A stretch of DNA of 64,000 nt from Halobellus captivus (lineage in GTDB: Archaea; Halobacteriota; Halobacteria; Halobacteriales; Haloferacaceae), in assembly GCF_007655485.1 (NCBI RefSeq), contig NZ_VJXQ01000002.1, forward strand, positions 1 to 64,000, in the 5' to 3' direction. Of the stretch, positions 39,496-45,430 are shown one piece after another. The notes beneath the pieces were generated by a model. It was not told where the DNA came from. It worked only from the letters and a program-made list of their open reading frames with translations, and made no database searches. The translations under genes were made by a program, and so were the position numbers. Within the stretch, counting starts at the first letter, position 1, and the number at the start of each line of letters is the position of its first letter.

Positions 39496-40812
39496 TCACT
39501 CGCCGTATCGGGAATCGTCTTCGGGGCGTTGCTCGCGGGGGAACCACGCGAGTTCGTGGTCCGCGTCGAGTTCGAGGTCGACGGGCCCCGATTTGGGGAT
39601 CTCCTCGTCGTGGTTGTGCATGCACTGGATCGATTCGCCGGTGTCCAACTCGACTTCGTACAGGAACGTCGGGCCCAGGTACCGCCGGGCGACGACGCGC
39701 CCGCAACTCGCCTCGACGCCCTCGCAGTCGAGCGTGCGCACGCTCACGTCGTCGGGGCGGACGAGCAAGTCGATCCGCGTGTGGTCGTACTCCGGTGCGA
39801 GACCGTGGATCTGCTCGCGCGGAACGGTCCCGAGATCGGTCTCGACGACGTCGCCGGAGACGTAGCCGGGGACGAAGCTCGCATAGCCCAGGAAGGCGGC
39901 GACGAACCTGGACTCGGGATGCTGGAAGACGCCTTCCGGATCGCCGATCTGCTCGATCTGCCCGTCGTTCATCACGGCGACGCGGTCGGAGATGGAGAGG
40001 GCCTCCTCCTGATCGTGCGTCACCGAGACGGCCGTCACGCCCGTCTCTTTGATGATCCGCCGCACCTCCTCGCGCATCTCCACGCGGAGGTCGACGTCGA
40101 GGTTCGAGAACGGCTCGTCGAGGAGGAGAATCTCGGGTTCGGGAGCCAAAGAGCGCGCGAGGGCGACCCGTTGCTGCTGCCCGCCGGAGAGCTGATCCGG
40201 GTAGCTGTCGCCCTGATCCGCGAGATCGACCAGTTCGAGCAGGTCGTCGACGCGCTCGCGGATCTCGTCGGCGGGGCGGTCCTTCAGCCCGAACGCGACG
40301 TTCTCTCGCGCGGTGAGGTGCGGAAACAGCGCGAACTCCTGAAAGACGACGCCGACGCCGCGCTCCTCCGGCGGCACGAACGTCGAGCCCGACACCGACC
40401 GGCCGTTCAGCCGTACCGCTCCTGCGTCCGGCTGTTCGAGTCCGGCGATGAGTCGAAGCGTCGTCGTCTTCCCACAGCCGGACGGACCGAGAAGCGTCAG
40501 GATCTCTCCATCCCTGACCGAGAGCGAGAGGCCCTCTACGACCAGTTCTGAGCCGTAGGACTTCCCGAGGTCGTCGAGTTCGAGAACGACGCTGTCGCCG
40601 ACCTCAGATAGACCAGGGGGCGACGCTGTCCCTGTATGGCGTTCCTCGCCGCCGCGTTCACCATCGTCGCCGACGCCACCACCAGTGCTGTCGACGCCTC
40701 CACCGTCGCCGTCGACGCGTTCGCCGTCGCCGACGCGTTCACCGCGGTCTCCCGTTCGTTCGGTCCGTCGCTCCGCGTCCGACTCCACCGCAGACTGTGT
40801 GCTATTTGACAT
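39496..40812 (-). CDS. fbpC: Iron(III) ABC transporter ATP-binding protein
   Basis: This 438-residue ATPase energises ferric iron import. Walker A is GPSGCGKTTTL, the signature is LSGGQQQRVALARSLA, Walker B is LLLDEPFSNLD and the H-loop is SVTHDQEEA. A C-terminal OB-like regulatory domain follows (LLVRPDDVSVRTLDCEGVE). The first 70 residues are a low-complexity Gly/Asp/Glu tail, unusual for the family. GGAGGG lies five bases before the second of two ATGs, so 40812 is preferred over 40815. Its start overlaps the permease gene end by 11 bp. Iron specificity is inferred from the FbpA/FbpB neighbours and the operator upstream. Confidence 0.9.
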   Translation of the reverse strand: MSNSTQSAVESDAERRTERTGDRGERVGDGERVDGDGGGVDSTGGGVGDDGERGGEERHTGTASPPGLSEVGDSVVLELDDLGKSYGSELVVEGLSLSVRDGEILTLLGPSGCGKTTTLRLIAGLEQPDAGAVRLNGRSVSGSTFVPPEERGVGVVFQEFALFPHLTARENVAFGLKDRPADEIRERVDDLLELVDLADQGDSYPDQLSGGQQQRVALARSLAPEPEILLLDEPFSNLDVDLRVEMREEVRRIIKETGVTAVSVTHDQEEALSISDRVAVMNDGQIEQIGDPEGVFQHPESRFVAAFLGYASFVPGYVSGDVVETDLGTVPREQIHGLAPEYDHTRIDLLVRPDDVSVRTLDCEGVEASCGRVVARRYLGPTFLYEVELDTGESIQCMHNHDEEIPKSGPVDLELDADHELAWFPREQRPEDDSRYGE

Positions 40813-42409
40813 CATATCCCTCCTGTCTCAGTATCACGAGCATCGAGAGCCCCGAAACGAACAACAAGACCAGGGCCGGAATCGCCGCCTGTCCGAAGTA
40901 GCCCGATTCATACGCTGTCCAGATATGTGTGACGAGCGTGGTAAAACCCGACGGTCGCAGCAGCAGCGTCGCGGGCAGTTCCTTCATCGTCGTCAGGAAG
41001 ACGAGCGCCGCGCCGCCGAACAAGCCGGGTGCGACCAGCGGGAGCGTCACGTAGCGGAACGCGCCCGCGGAGGTCTGCCCGAGCGTCCGCGCGGCCTCCG
41101 GAAGCGCCGGGTCGACAGAGAGGAACGACGCGCGGAGCGAGCCGACCGACTGCGGCAGGAACCGGATCACGTACGCGAACACCAGCAGGTACAGCGTCTG
41201 GTAGATCGGCGTCGCGTACTGGCTCCCGAAGAACACGAGCGCGAGGCCGAGGACCACGCCGGGGATGGCGTAGCCGACGTAGCTGAGGCGCTCGAACGCG
41301 GTCGGGACGAAGCCGTCGTACCGCGCCGAGAGGTACGCGACCGGAAGCCCGGCCACCACCGCGAGCGCCGCTGCCGCCGCCGCGACGGCGACGGAGTTGG
41401 CCGCGTACGACCACTGAAACGCCAGCGACTGATTGACCGTCGTCGAGGCGGTTCCGAGCCACGAGACCAGGATGACGACCGGGACGACGAGCGCCAACCC
41501 GGCCACGATGGCCGCAAAGCCCATCGCGGGGTAGCGCCACGCTCCGAGCGAGACGGCCGCCCGCGACCGGCCGCCCGCGGTCGTCCGCTCCTCGCCGCGG
41601 ACGCGCGACTCCAGCCAGAGGATGAATAGCGTGACCGCGACCAGCTGCAGCGATAGCAGGGTCGCGGTGTCGCGACCGAACGTCCCGAACTCGACGAAAA
41701 TGACGCGCGTGAACACGTCGTAGCGCATAATCGACGGCGTTCCGAAGTCAGCGAGGACGTAGAGCCCCGCGAGCAGCGCGCCCGCGGCGACGGCCGGGCG
41801 GATCTGGGGGATCGTCACCCGCCGGAACGTCTCCCAGCGGTCGTGTTCGAGCGTCCGCGCGGCATCGATCAGCGTCGTGTCCATCGACTTCAGCGACGCC
41901 CGCGCGGTGATGTAGACGTAGGGATAGGTGTACAGTGTGAGAATCAACACCGACCCTTCGAGACCGTAAATTTCGGGGATCCGCTCGATCCCGATCGGCG
42001 CGAGGAGCCGCTGGAACGCCCCCTGCGGACCGAACGCCGAGACGAACGCGAATGCGCCCACGTAGCTCGGAATCACGAGCGGAAGCGAGACGGCGATCGT
42101 CCAGAACCGACGGAACGGGAGATCCGTCCGCACGGTCAGATACGCCAGTGGAACGCCGATCAACACGCACGCGGCGGTCGTCAGCGTGACCAAAATCGCG
42201 CTGTTGAGAAAGACTTCGAGCGTCGTCGGTCGCGTCAGAAGCGCGAGCGCTTCCGTGAGGCCGACTTCGAGCCCGGTCTTGACGAGCCACAGCACCGGGA
42301 GAACCACGGCCGCGGAAACGGCGGCCGCCGCGACGGAAACGCCGAGCGGGAGCCGCGTCTGCCCGTCGCCCTCGTCGTCCGTCTTCGTCGTCCGGTGTTC
42401 CGTGGCCAT
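40802..42409 (-). CDS. fbpB: Iron(III) ABC transporter permease (fused double domain)
   Basis: This 535-residue permease has twelve hydrophobic segments in two similar halves, as in SfuB/FbpB. The inner-loop coupling motifs are visible as EAARTLGQTSAGAFRYVTLP in the second half and DAARTLEHDRWETFRRVTIP in the first. The protein is membrane-embedded; a short hydrophilic N-terminus precedes the first segment. It lies between fbpA and fbpC, overlaps the latter and is 25 bp from the former. Confidence 0.92.
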   Translation of the reverse strand: MATEHRTTKTDDEGDGQTRLPLGVSVAAAAVSAAVVLPVLWLVKTGLEVGLTEALALLTRPTTLEVFLNSAILVTLTTAACVLIGVPLAYLTVRTDLPFRRFWTIAVSLPLVIPSYVGAFAFVSAFGPQGAFQRLLAPIGIERIPEIYGLEGSVLILTLYTYPYVYITARASLKSMDTTLIDAARTLEHDRWETFRRVTIPQIRPAVAAGALLAGLYVLADFGTPSIMRYDVFTRVIFVEFGTFGRDTATLLSLQLVAVTLFILWLESRVRGEERTTAGGRSRAAVSLGAWRYPAMGFAAIVAGLALVVPVVILVSWLGTASTTVNQSLAFQWSYAANSVAVAAAAAALAVVAGLPVAYLSARYDGFVPTAFERLSYVGYAIPGVVLGLALVFFGSQYATPIYQTLYLLVFAYVIRFLPQSVGSLRASFLSVDPALPEAARTLGQTSAGAFRYVTLPLVAPGLFGGAALVFLTTMKELPATLLLRPSGFTTLVTHIWTAYESGYFGQAAIPALVLLFVSGLSMLVILRQEGYDVK

Positions 42410-42434: not shown

Positions 42435-43607
42435 TCAGAGGATGCCCGTCTCCCGGAGGAGTTCGATCGTCGTCTCGAGGTCCGACAGTTGTGACAGGTC
42501 TATATCCTCGGGCGGGTTCAACTCGTCGATCGTCGGGAGGCGGCCGATCGGCTCGACCTCGGGGACAAGGGGATACTCGAACGTGGTTCTGGCGAAGTAG
42601 TCCTGCGCCTCTGCCGAGAGGAGGTGGCGGACGAAGTTAGCCGCGAGCGTGTCGTCGGCGGCGGTGTCGAGGACGCACGCTCCGGCGACGTTGAACACCG
42701 CGCCAGCGTCGTTCCGGGTGAACGTGGTCGCGAGGGGGGTTCCGGTGCCGCGTCGCGCCAGCACGCGTTGGATGTAGTAGTGATTCGTCAGTCCGGCGGC
42801 GATCTCGCCGTCCGCGACGGCCCGGGCGATCTGGAACTCGTCGCCGTACTGGCTCACGCCGAGTTCCTGCATTCCCGCCAGCCACTCGCGGGTGGCGTCG
42901 TCGCCCTCGAGGATCCGCATCGCCGTGATGAACGCCTGGAAGGAGGAGTACGTCGGAGCCCAGCCGAGTTCGCCCTCGAACGCGGCCGTCTCCGGGAACG
43001 CCATAATGCTCTCGGGGATATCCGACTCCGAGAAGGTGTCCGTGTTGTACGGGATCGATCGGGCGCGGCCGGAGGTCCCGATCCACGACCCGTCGGGCGC
43101 GCGGAAGTTCTCCGGGACGAACTCCAAGACCTCGTCTGGGAGCGCCCGCGTGCGACCCCATTCGGCGAGGGTTCCGAGCGCGCCCGCGTTCACCGAGTAG
43201 AACACGTCTGCGGGGCTGTTGTCCCCCTCGATGTCGATCTGGTTTACGAGTTCGGCAGCCGAGTTGTACTGCGGGCGGACCGTGAAGTTCGGGTACTGGT
43301 CCTCGATGAAGCCCACGAGTTCGCCGACGAGCGCCTCGCCGCGGCCCGAGTACAGCGTCAGTTCCCCTTCGAGGTCGGGCATCTCCGACATCGGAACGCC
43401 GGAGAGGTCGCGGTCGCCGAAGGGTCCCTGACCGGACCCGATCTGTTCGGGAGAGTCCCCGCCGGATCCGTCGCCGCCCGTCTCTGTTTCCGTGGCGGTT
43501 CCGTCCCCGCCCGGCGTGTTACAACCCGCGACGCCGACGATGCCCGCGGCGGCCGCCGCCTGGAGGAATCGGCGGCGGGTCCGAGGCGCTTCGTTTCGTT
43601 CGTGCAT
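42435..43607 (-). CDS. fbpA: Iron(III)-binding lipoprotein of the ABC importer
   Basis: This 390-residue solute-binding protein captures ferric iron outside the cell. The N-terminus has the Tat motif RRRFLQ and a lipobox VAGC (Cys about 29), followed by a Gly/Asp/Glu spacer. The mature part begins GELTLYSGRGEALVGELV, the typical FbpA opening, and has QYGDEFQIARAVADGEIAAGL. Tyrosine ligands are expected near the C-terminal half (TNHYYIQRV). It is first of the importer operon and has a TATA box plus an iron-type operator directly before it. Confidence 0.92.
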   Translation of the reverse strand: MHERNEAPRTRRRFLQAAAAAGIVGVAGCNTPGGDGTATETETGGDGSGGDSPEQIGSGQGPFGDRDLSGVPMSEMPDLEGELTLYSGRGEALVGELVGFIEDQYPNFTVRPQYNSAAELVNQIDIEGDNSPADVFYSVNAGALGTLAEWGRTRALPDEVLEFVPENFRAPDGSWIGTSGRARSIPYNTDTFSESDIPESIMAFPETAAFEGELGWAPTYSSFQAFITAMRILEGDDATREWLAGMQELGVSQYGDEFQIARAVADGEIAAGLTNHYYIQRVLARRGTGTPLATTFTRNDAGAVFNVAGACVLDTAADDTLAANFVRHLLSAEAQDYFARTTFEYPLVPEVEPIGRLPTIDELNPPEDIDLSQLSDLETTIELLRETGIL

Positions 43608-43613
43608 AGTTGA

Positions 43614-43640
43614 TTTAGGTCTACCTAAAAGGTATATACT
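43614..43640 (-). promoter_or_regulatory. fbpA promoter with iron-type operator
   Basis: The perfect palindrome TTTAGG-N4-CCTAAA occupies 43614-43629, and the TATA box AGTATATACC (43631-43640) adjoins it. The arrangement fits repression by a DtxR/SirR/Idr-type iron-dependent repressor bound at the start site. The same palindrome occurs at 44853-44868. Confidence 0.75.
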
Positions 43641-43652
43641 TTCCGGTACGGT

Positions 43653-44840
43653 TCAGTCGTCCGCGACGGCGGCTTCCGGTTCCCGACGCTCGCTCTCGTC
43701 TCGGTCCGTCAAGTCGTCCAGTTCGTCGAGGCAGTCGAGCCAGTCGAGCCAGTACTCCCCACAGACGTTCAGGAACGCCCCGTTGTTCCACTCCGAGAAG
43801 TCGCCGTCGGCGAGCGCTCGCGCCATCGCGTGGGCGATTCCGCCCCACGAATCCGCGTCGTCGCCGACGACGTCGACGACCTCCCAGACGTGCTCGTTGA
43901 GTTCGAGACCCGGAACCTCGTTGTTCAGGTCGTCGAACGTCGGCCGCGGGGCCTTGTTGTGCTCGCAGAGCGGGTAGCCGTTGACGACGTCCTTCCCGAG
44001 TAGATCGGCCGCGCGTTTGAGGAACACGCCCGACCAGATGTCGTCGAACCGGCCGACGTCCCACTCGTTGTCGTCCATCGGGAGCTGGTAGAACGCCGGG
44101 ATCACCTCGCGCTCGAAGGCGAGGTTCATCGAGCAGACGGTGAGGTACTGTCCCGGCTCCGCGACGAAGTCGCCGTCGAAGTCCGCCTTCCCGGTCCGGG
44201 TCTGCGCCTGCCCCTGCAGGTCGCCGTCCATCAGGATACGAACCGCATCGAGGTCCGGCACGTTCGTCCAGAGACCCTGCGAGGCGACGACGTCAGAGAG
44301 TTCCCGTGTGCCGGTCTGGACGTTCTCGTCCATCGCGGAGTACGGGTACCCACGGGGGTACAGGCCGTGTTCGTCGACGCGCTGATAGAGGACGTTCACC
44401 CAGCGCTCTTCGGAGCTGACGGACTCGACCTCGTCGGTCCGGTCGAGGTTGGTCATATGACGGCCGAAGAAGTCCCACTCGTCGTGCGGAAGCGTGTCGT
44501 CGTCGATGAACACGCCGCGCTCGAATCGCGGGTGTGCCCACAGATAGAGCAGCCCGAAACTGGTCTGGGCGTGCGACGCAGCAGGAATCAAGTGCGAAAA
44601 GGCGGCCAGCCCTCGCTCTTCGAACCACGCCTCGCGACGCGAACCGTCGTAAACCGCGCCGTCGACTCCCTCCTCTTCGAGCATCGCTTCCATCGCCTCG
44701 ACGTCGCAGAAGTCCTCCGTGACGAGGAGGACGAACAGTCGGTCGAGGTCGAAGCCGTGGTCGCGGGCGTTCTCGAAGTACACCCGCATACAGTCGTAGT
44801 CGCGGATGGTCGGGACCACGACGCAGACGTCTTGGGTCAT
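43653..44840 (-). CDS. Reversibly glycosylated polypeptide-like protein (GT75-like)
   Basis: This 395-residue protein resembles the plant RGP/UDP-arabinopyranose mutase family, often annotated as alpha-glucan-protein synthase. It opens with VCVVVPTIRDYDCMRVYF and has the DxD-like metal motif FIDDDTLPHDEWDFF near residue 115. Further blocks are TVCSMNLAFEREVIPAFYQL and DIWSGVFLKRAADLLGK. No membrane segment or signal is seen. It stands upstream of fbpA with its own promoter and the same iron-type operator, so it is probably iron-controlled. A role in making a surface glycan or glyco-siderophore under iron lack is possible but speculative; the family call is by pattern only. Confidence 0.7.
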   Translation of the reverse strand: MTQDVCVVVPTIRDYDCMRVYFENARDHGFDLDRLFVLLVTEDFCDVEAMEAMLEEEGVDGAVYDGSRREAWFEERGLAAFSHLIPAASHAQTSFGLLYLWAHPRFERGVFIDDDTLPHDEWDFFGRHMTNLDRTDEVESVSSEERWVNVLYQRVDEHGLYPRGYPYSAMDENVQTGTRELSDVVASQGLWTNVPDLDAVRILMDGDLQGQAQTRTGKADFDGDFVAEPGQYLTVCSMNLAFEREVIPAFYQLPMDDNEWDVGRFDDIWSGVFLKRAADLLGKDVVNGYPLCEHNKAPRPTFDDLNNEVPGLELNEHVWEVVDVVGDDADSWGGIAHAMARALADGDFSEWNNGAFLNVCGEYWLDWLDCLDELDDLTDRDESERREPEAAVADD

Positions 44841-44852
44841 CGACTGTCACTC

Positions 44853-44868
44853 TTTAGGGCAGCCTAAA
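44853..44868 (-). promoter_or_regulatory. Second iron-type operator, before the RGP-like gene
   Basis: TTTAGG-GCAG-CCTAAA is a perfect palindrome, 12 bp ahead of the RGP-like ATG and 28 bp ahead of the divergent HPP gene. A TATA-like CTTTTAGG on the minus strand overlaps it. Confidence 0.7.
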
Positions 44869-44896: not shown

Positions 44897-45430
44897 ATGC
44901 ATCACAGAACCGAACCGCTCTTTGCGTTTCTCCATCTCTCCGGACTCGTGTCTCGGAAGGACGTGGGTGACGACGTCGCGGTGGGCCTCCGCGCGGGGCT
45001 CCTCCTATCGATCGCGGCCGCGGTAGCGTGGCTCTCGGGCGCGCCAGCCGTGTTCCCGAGTCTCGGCCCCTCGGCGTATGTCCTATCGACTGCGCGCCGG
45101 GGACCCAGCGGGCGCGTCGTCGTGGGCGGACACGCGGTGGGCGTCGTGGCGGGGTTGGTCTCGTACATCGCCGTCTCCGCGGTGGTTCCGGTTCCGGAGT
45201 CGCCGCTTCTGTTCGATCCGCCGTGGCTGGCGATCAGCGCGGTCCTCGCGCTGATGCTCACGACGATCGGGATGCGGCTTACGAACCTGGTCCACCCCCC
45301 CGCGTGCGCGACGACGCTCATCGTCTCGCTGGGGCTCCTCGAACCGCTCCCCGCGGTCGTAGTCGTGTTGCCCGCGGTGGCCTCGCTGCTGGTGGTCGAT
45401 CGAGCGCTCGACGGCTCCCTGCGGCGGTGA
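44897..45430 (+). CDS. HPP-family membrane protein
   Basis: This 177-residue protein has about five hydrophobic segments and the family mark in MRLTNLVHPPACATTLIVSL; the opening segment ends SLGPSAYVLSTARRGPSGR, typical of HPP proteins. Bacterial members have been linked to nitrite transport in plastids and to CBS-domain fusions, but no CBS domain is present here. It is divergent from the RGP-like gene and shares the iron-type operator region. Substrate unknown. Confidence 0.8.
   Translation: MHHRTEPLFAFLHLSGLVSRKDVGDDVAVGLRAGLLLSIAAAVAWLSGAPAVFPSLGPSAYVLSTARRGPSGRVVVGGHAVGVVAGLVSYIAVSAVVPVPESPLLFDPPWLAISAVLALMLTTIGMRLTNLVHPPACATTLIVSLGLLEPLPAVVVVLPAVASLLVVDRALDGSLRR

Follow-up and report, generated by a model that had tools for sequence, protein, structure and literature searches.

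A co-inherited glycan gene module of haloarchaea under a probable iron-repressor operator shared with fbpABC

Archaeal surface glycosylation is known chiefly from S-layer N-glycans and salt adaptation. In the AglD-AglR-AglS branch of N-glycosylation in Haloferax volcanii, a GT2 enzyme makes a dolichol-phosphate sugar, which crosses the membrane and is transferred on the outside (PMC3871713), and in Haloarcula hispanica dolichol-phosphate glucuronic acid is the product of AepG (PMC9943897). Mycobacteria use the decaprenyl-phosphate-arabinofuranose pathway, in which GT-C enzymes of the Emb/Aft type work with a furanose donor on polyprenyl phosphate. On the regulatory side, the closest described systems are the haloarchaeal iron regulons of FerR/Idr-type DtxR-family regulators.

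Here we analysed a window of 64,000 bp (the whole stretch of DNA under study, bases 1-64000 of contig 12 of the Halobellus captivus genome, 3.35 Mb in 21 contigs), in which a gene for a protein resembling reversibly glycosylated polypeptides (RGP) precedes a ferric-iron importer operon, fbpABC, and a gene for a predicted GT-C membrane glycosyltransferase. The candidate haloarchaeal module to which these genes belong resembles AglD-AglR-AglS (PMC3871713) in the loading of dolichol phosphate by a GT2 enzyme, the crossing of the membrane and transfer outside the cell by a membrane enzyme; the tie to S-layer N-glycans is not part of the likeness. It differs in the reshaping of a nucleotide sugar by the RGP-like protein, in its iron operators, in the neighbourhood of FbpABC and in a sugar dehydrogenase. 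With the mycobacterial pathway it would share the furanose donor on polyprenyl phosphate and the use of a GT-C enzyme, whereas DprE1/DprE2 are lacking, the ring change would be carried out by a GT75 enzyme and the module is predicted to be iron-regulated. It shares with the FerR/Idr-type regulons DtxR-family proteins encoded in the genome and an operator palindrome that also stands at siderophore, regulator and FhuD-type genes, but here the regulon adds a co-inherited glycan module (RGP, GT2, GT-C and a GMC dehydrogenase). Some of these genes may already figure in the regulon described by Leyn and Rodionov (2015), and the novelty claimed, a co-inherited and co-regulated glycan module, is conditional on the regulon list in that study.

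Palindromic operators at the RGP-like and fbpA genes

By sequence search, two exact copies of the palindrome TTTAGG-N4-CCTAAA were detected in the window. Operator 1 (TTTAGGTCTACCTAAA, 43614..43629, no strand assigned) lies between the RGP-like gene and fbpA, 6 bp from the fbpA ATG (43607, minus strand), and operator 2 (TTTAGGGCAGCCTAAA, 44853..44868, no strand assigned) lies upstream of the ATG of the RGP-like gene (PF03214; 44840, minus strand) with a gap of 12 bp. The original prediction of a perfect palindrome at the 5' end of each of the two genes was therefore correct. With up to two mismatches allowed, just these two sites were found in the window against 0.16 expected, and two palindromes were reached in 1 of 100 dinucleotide shuffles of the window. 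Random scatter of the palindrome across the genome, which had been named as a possible objection, was not seen in a genome scan that returned four exact copies in 3.35 Mb. The third copy precedes a DUF7260 gene (C18:4483) and the fourth a siderophore-type binding-protein gene (Peripla_BP_2; C18:14709), which carries a second palindrome with one mismatch 36 bp from the exact one. At up to one mismatch, the H. captivus genome holds 10 sites against 5 for a reversed-pattern control, an excess that is not large; in seven other haloarchaea the contrast with the control was mostly clear (sites/control: 31/0, 35/3, 31/1, 21/1, 12/1, 27/5 and 8/5). A chance origin of the palindromes was ruled out by the shuffles, the reversed-pattern controls and the conservation described below.

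The gene order on the minus strand is RGP-like gene (43653..44840), operator, fbpA, fbpB, fbpC and GT-C gene. FbpA (42435..43607, minus strand) is a ferric-iron binding lipoprotein with a Tat-type signal, whose best solved relative is the binding protein of a ferric iron ABC transporter (7w3w, E 1.3e-60). FbpB (40802..42409, minus strand) is a permease with two BPD_transp_1 domains (PF00528, two stretches), orthologues of which are labelled 'iron ABC transporter permease' in plasmid clusters, and FbpC (39496..40815, minus strand) is an ABC ATPase (PF00005 + TOBE_2). An Fe(III)-binding substrate-binding protein, a fused permease and an ATPase in one run identify FbpABC as a ferric importer. The GT-C gene (PMT_2 + DUF7846, PF13231 + PF25230; 37225..39492, minus strand) is the last of the fbp run. 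As all gaps from fbpA through the GT-C gene are at most 25 bp or the genes overlap, the latter is probably transcribed from the fbpA promoter. Divergent from the RGP-like gene, a gene of the HPP transmembrane family (44897-45430, plus strand) starts 28 bp from operator 2 and could possibly be under shared control with it; the arrangement is not conserved, a relative standing beside RGP in only 2 of the best-scoring 80 of 233 loci.

We regard conservation across haloarchaeal loci as the decisive sequence-based test of whether the palindrome is real. It was assessed in 80 named haloarchaeal loci, the best-scoring of 233 and thus tilted to closer relatives. Among these best 80 of 233, 75 loci had an operator with at most one mismatch ahead of RGP, at a distance of 27-63 bp from its start, and 69 had one upstream of fbpA; fbpA was close to RGP in 77. 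The prediction that the RGP-like gene shares the palindrome was thereby borne out across the order. The sharing might in principle reflect an old gene order, with RGP an ordinary nucleotide-sugar enzyme of a constitutive surface glycan; RGP and fbpA adjoin, and in two loci (L082, Halocatena marina; L087, YIM A00010) RGP stands without an adjacent fbpA and has no operator. However, the RGP operator is separate from that of fbpA even where other genes are inserted between the two (L053, L054 and L071), each of which retains its own copy, and the operator is also found at unlinked GT2 and dehydrogenase genes (see below), so that we consider this explanation highly improbable. That RGP merely uses the promoter of its neighbour was ruled out, since it retains its own operator. 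As RGP in L082 and L087 lacks both operator and adjacent fbpA, the link between the sugar module and iron control can be broken; in L087 RGP still lies beside GT-C and GT2.

A total of 252 palindromes was found in the 1.33 Mb of these best 80 of 233 loci, and the genes at whose starts they mainly lie are RGP, fbpA, GT2, that for the dehydrogenase small subunit and a flippase-like gene. In Haloferax denitrificans and Halomicrobium katesii, the genes downstream of the sites were read individually. Here the operator precedes an IucA/IucC siderophore synthetase with an adjoining class-III (DABA-type) aminotransferase, several FhuD-like Tat lipoproteins and GT2. Three copies surround a DtxR-family regulator gene and its DUF7260 neighbour, and genes of the Dps region are also among the targets in haloarchaea. 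The H. captivus genome itself encodes DtxR-family proteins at C1:703516 (with a FeoA domain) and C1:812518, both with PF01325 and PF02742. Because its targets are siderophore, FhuD-like and DtxR-family genes, the palindrome is very probably an iron-repressor operator, and the DtxR-type operator of the original prediction is supported to the same degree by these targets together with the Dps-region genes. An operator of another metal regulator, for instance for Mn or Zn, could be argued from the use of Mn2+ by GT75 enzymes (PMC9937993) and from the ability of DtxR-family proteins to sense Mn. It is nevertheless very unlikely, as the remaining targets comprise siderophore synthesis, Fe-siderophore uptake and a DtxR regulator, and as PMC11349517 describes the H. 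volcanii fhu operons as bearing the iron 'ferR regulon signal' (Leyn and Rodionov 2015).

The DUF7260 gene bears an operator in H. captivus (C18:4483; L003:1501-2332) and, beside the DtxR-family regulator gene, in H. denitrificans (L155:982-2003). DUF7551/DUF7552 genes follow an operator in two genera (identified at L148:859-1920; looking alike at L162:1-914). Both are candidates for uncharacterised iron-regulon families. A distinct palindrome, TTTAGACGGGTCTAAA (L041:1478-1493, on contig C1 of H. captivus), stands 7 bp ahead of the gene start of the DtxR-family protein with the FeoA domain and is perhaps this gene's own operator of altered specificity.

Fold and family of the RGP-like and GT-C proteins

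The RGP-like protein (395 aa) matched PF03214 with 58 bits against a curated cut-off of 23.8, which places it in the RGP family. Its closest named relatives are from Halobellus species (up to 88% identity), and its best solved relatives are MtdL, a mutase of GDP-sugar pyranose/furanose forms (7yua/7xpr, E 1.5e-23), and a UDP-arabinopyranose (UDP-Arap) mutase (8cid). The AlphaFold2 model had a pLDDT of 81.9, with lower confidence in two stretches that take in active-site loops (residues 153-170 and 193-214). Over 349 residues it aligned with MtdL at Z 35.2 and rmsd 2.9 Å; rice OsUAM2 gave Z 26.8 and the next unrelated entry 14.9. The predicted fold thus spans the whole protein, with a GT-A domain, the GT75 core and helices at the C-terminus.

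MtdL residues, whose functional roles are described in PMC9937993, were mapped onto RGP by phmmer alignment in 52 haloarchaeal sequences. D109-D111, R159, D195, S228, R257, D260 and H287 of MtdL were retained in 52/52. In the numbering of the H. captivus protein, the metal (Mn) site (D113-D115 and H294), the autoglycosylated Arg (R163) and the general-base Asp (D267), as well as D196 and R264, were all conserved in 52/52. Compared with MtdL (7xpr, 7yua) and the plant UDP-Arap mutases (8cid), the haloarchaeal proteins therefore share the full-length fold, the metal site, the acceptor Arg and the general-base Asp, but they differ in four substitutions found in all 52, and the group is exclusively haloarchaeal. 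Asp87, required for the mutase activity of MtdL (PMC9937993), is His90 in 52/52, so that the complete residue set of an NDP-pyranose mutase was not found, and Gln229, Arg289 and His292 are replaced by Met238, Lys296 and Arg299. Mutase activity of RGP is not assured because of these changes. We speculate that His90 might accommodate a sugar that differs at C6, e.g. a uronic acid. By family and predicted GT75/MtdL fold, the protein is kin to nucleotide-sugar pyranose/furanose mutases, its reaction being proposed only. The earlier assignment to an RGP-like nucleotide-sugar or glycan protein was thus refined to a GT75/MtdL fold by structure prediction, with the reservation that the key Asp of the mutases is replaced.

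A profile of the haloarchaeal RGP had no match outside the Halobacteriales among 295 genomes of the phylum. Elsewhere, including on plasmids, the protein is annotated as 'alpha-1 4-glucan-protein synthase', a label for which the predicted fold gives no support and which appears misleading. One genome with a standard RGP also encodes a second, distant RGP-like protein (G049:C2:1525574-1526293; 35% identity, 353-aa frame).

For the GT-C protein, a sequence profile found no match among solved structures, and it was a fold search that revealed the GT-C fold. The AlphaFold2 model (pLDDT 89.3) matched GT-C enzymes of the OST, PMT, ALG9/12, ArnT and AglB types (Z 19-24). The matches were limited to polyprenol-dependent transferases, the mycobacterial arabinosyltransferases ranking after the AglB-type enzymes (Emb/AftD folds, Z 14-16). 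In the first external loop, the acidic pair D79-E80 of an NxDE motif was invariant in 45/45 sequences. Modelled membrane fold and acidic motif together support assignment to the GT-C glycosyltransferases.

Wider module and its co-inheritance

Around RGP, in the best 80 of 233 loci, genes for RGP (79), fbpA (76), fbpB (73), fbpC (56) and GT-C (75) were clustered with GT2 (42), a gluconate 2-dehydrogenase subunit-3-like Tat protein (41) and a GMC oxidoreductase (22); genes for a flippase-like protein (16) and for a GalE-like epimerase (12) were confined to a subset. Complete RGP-fbpABC-GT-C-GT2-dehydrogenase clusters are borne by megaplasmids of Halobaculum and Salarchaeum (L275, L276; NZ_CP090372.1, NZ_CP042240.1). 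In H. captivus, GT2 (C12:107537-108217) and the GMC catalytic subunit with its adjoining Tat small subunit (C1:231350-231958 and C1:231963-233558) are unlinked to RGP, yet the operator is present at these genes. It was found within 300 bp upstream of 55 of 60 GT2 genes surveyed, including genomes in which GT2 is unlinked, and at 16 of 18 unlinked dehydrogenase small-subunit genes with at most one mismatch, the other two having two mismatches; the mononucleotide-shuffled control for both surveys gave no operator at that level.

GT2 scored 410 bits against the NCBIfam model of dolichyl-phosphate hexose transferases (NF041391, cut-off 375), and its best solved relative is a DolP-mannose synthase (5mlz, E 3.8e-9). 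Family model and homology accordingly point to a dolichyl-phosphate sugar synthase. The best solved relative of the GMC protein is an FAD-glucose dehydrogenase (E 1.9e-95), and the catalytic subunits of fructose dehydrogenases are also alike. As in the FAD-glucose and fructose dehydrogenase complexes, the GMC catalytic subunit adjoins a Tat small subunit (gluconate 2-dehydrogenase subunit 3), and it was therefore assigned to the FAD-glucose dehydrogenase type; the haloarchaeal pair differs in bearing an iron operator and in being co-inherited with a glycan pathway. An LPG-synthase/flippase-like gene beside RGP in Natrinema-type clusters was considered as a universal part and rejected, since the best matches in Haloferax and others are longer AglD-like frames. 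In PMC11349517, an iron-starvation proteome of H. volcanii, the UPF0104 protein HVO_1859 (+11.6-fold) and the GalE-like HVO_0655 (+12.7-fold) are increased, which is suggestive only and was not used as evidence. Its table of changes of at least 10-fold names no RGP, GT-C or GT2 protein of this module, although H. volcanii has a PF03214 protein, and this weighs against the proposed iron control.

Presence and absence were surveyed in the same 146 genomes of the Halobacteriales. RGP was found in 100, GT-C in 101 and GT2 in 101, and the three genome lists differ only in G133, a MAG of 77% completeness in which GT-C and GT2 were found but RGP was not. The proposed tie of the GT-C-like protein at the end of the run to RGP is upheld by this shared distribution. 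The GMC oxidoreductase (97/146) and its small subunit (96/146) are nearly nested with RGP; the pair is absent from five RGP genomes (G019, G053, G061, G069 and G085) and present in G141, which lacks RGP, GT-C and GT2. Fisher tests of co-occurrence gave extreme values, though they are blind to kinship. At least eight genera (g4, g12, g13, g16, g21, g24, g33 and g51) hold both states, and RGP, GT-C and GT2 were gained or lost jointly in each of these mixed genera.

FbpA, found in 131/146 genomes, including all 100 with RGP and 31 of the 46 without it, was rejected as the driver of this co-inheritance. Its operator was retained in 17 of 20 RGP-less genomes tested. Together, these two observations indicate, from sequence, that control of fbpA by iron is the more widespread of the two traits and that the sugar module was joined onto it. 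They also bear on an alternative in which the module glycosylates FbpA or other low-iron surface lipoproteins for stability or folding at high salt and is co-regulated through its substrates, not for iron capture. The lipoprotein FbpA has a linker rich in Thr, Ser and Gly, its gene is flanked by RGP and GT-C and occurs in every genome with RGP, and in several genera fbpA and GT-C are direct neighbours while fbpB is distant. But FbpA evidently works without the module in the RGP-less genomes that encode it, the H. captivus FbpA has one Asn sequon, and the sugar dehydrogenase is left unexplained; we regard this alternative as possible, though rather unlikely.

A proposed iron-repressed glycan pathway

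We consider it likely that these genes form the core of an iron-repressed glycan module, in which a pathway for decoration of the surface via dolichol-phosphate sugars would be switched on by low iron and be coupled to FbpABC. The regulatory statement and the list of parts are well supported, and the observed base comprises the operators, their conservation, the identities of the genes by fold and family and their co-inheritance. The palindromes overlap the promoter/start region; a DtxR-family repressor bound to them when iron is plentiful would keep both RGP and the fbpABC-GT-C run silent. As iron falls, both would be induced along with siderophore and FhuD-type genes. RGP would then reshape a nucleotide sugar, probably by pyranose/furanose conversion, and GT2, encoded elsewhere in the genome under its own operator, would load the sugar onto dolichol phosphate. 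The dolichol-linked sugar may then be turned outward by a flippase, for which some genera have a gene in the cluster, and the GT-C enzyme would transfer it outside the cell to a putative surface acceptor. The Tat-exported, operator-bearing GMC sugar dehydrogenase would oxidise a sugar at the surface, and FbpABC would import Fe(III). This order of steps is proposed from knowledge of the families (AglD-AglR-AglS; AepG).

How such a glycan might bring Fe(III) to FbpA is a further question. FbpA-type proteins bind bare Fe(III), and the co-inheritance of the operator-bearing GMC dehydrogenase and its Tat small subunit with RGP, GT2 and GT-C would fit a surface sugar or glycolipid rich in carboxyl groups after oxidation, to which Fe(III) would itself bind before passing to FbpA. 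Haloarchaea would then use an oxidised, iron-repressed surface carbohydrate made via dolichol phosphate as an Fe(III) trap for FbpABC, a cell-bound counterpart of a siderophore. We hold this idea only tentatively and think it doubtful, as five RGP genomes lack the dehydrogenase pair, the structure of a chelator is not predictable from sequence, and haloarchaea commonly display uronic-acid sugars on their surface that have nothing to do with iron.

The proposed iron-repressed glycan module itself retains the palindrome, the control of RGP and the GT-C link of the original prediction, and extends them to GT2 and the GMC dehydrogenase outside the window. The glycosylated iron carrier also hinted at in that prediction would be a further, hypothetical step. 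Three enzymes, of the GT75, dolichol-phosphate transferase and GT-C types, are gained and lost as one unit, with a sugar dehydrogenase, under an operator of the iron regulon. Five generically annotated gene families can now be approached with a question shaped by function, namely which sugar is made under iron shortage and for what. The module is directly testable in H. volcanii, which has a PF03214 protein and thus carries the RGP family, and for which gene-deletion tools are standard. Taken together, the finding that in most haloarchaea sampled co-inherited enzymes, apparently for making and oxidising a surface sugar, share the switch sequence of the iron-uptake genes suggests that these organisms remodel the sugars of their surface to obtain iron.
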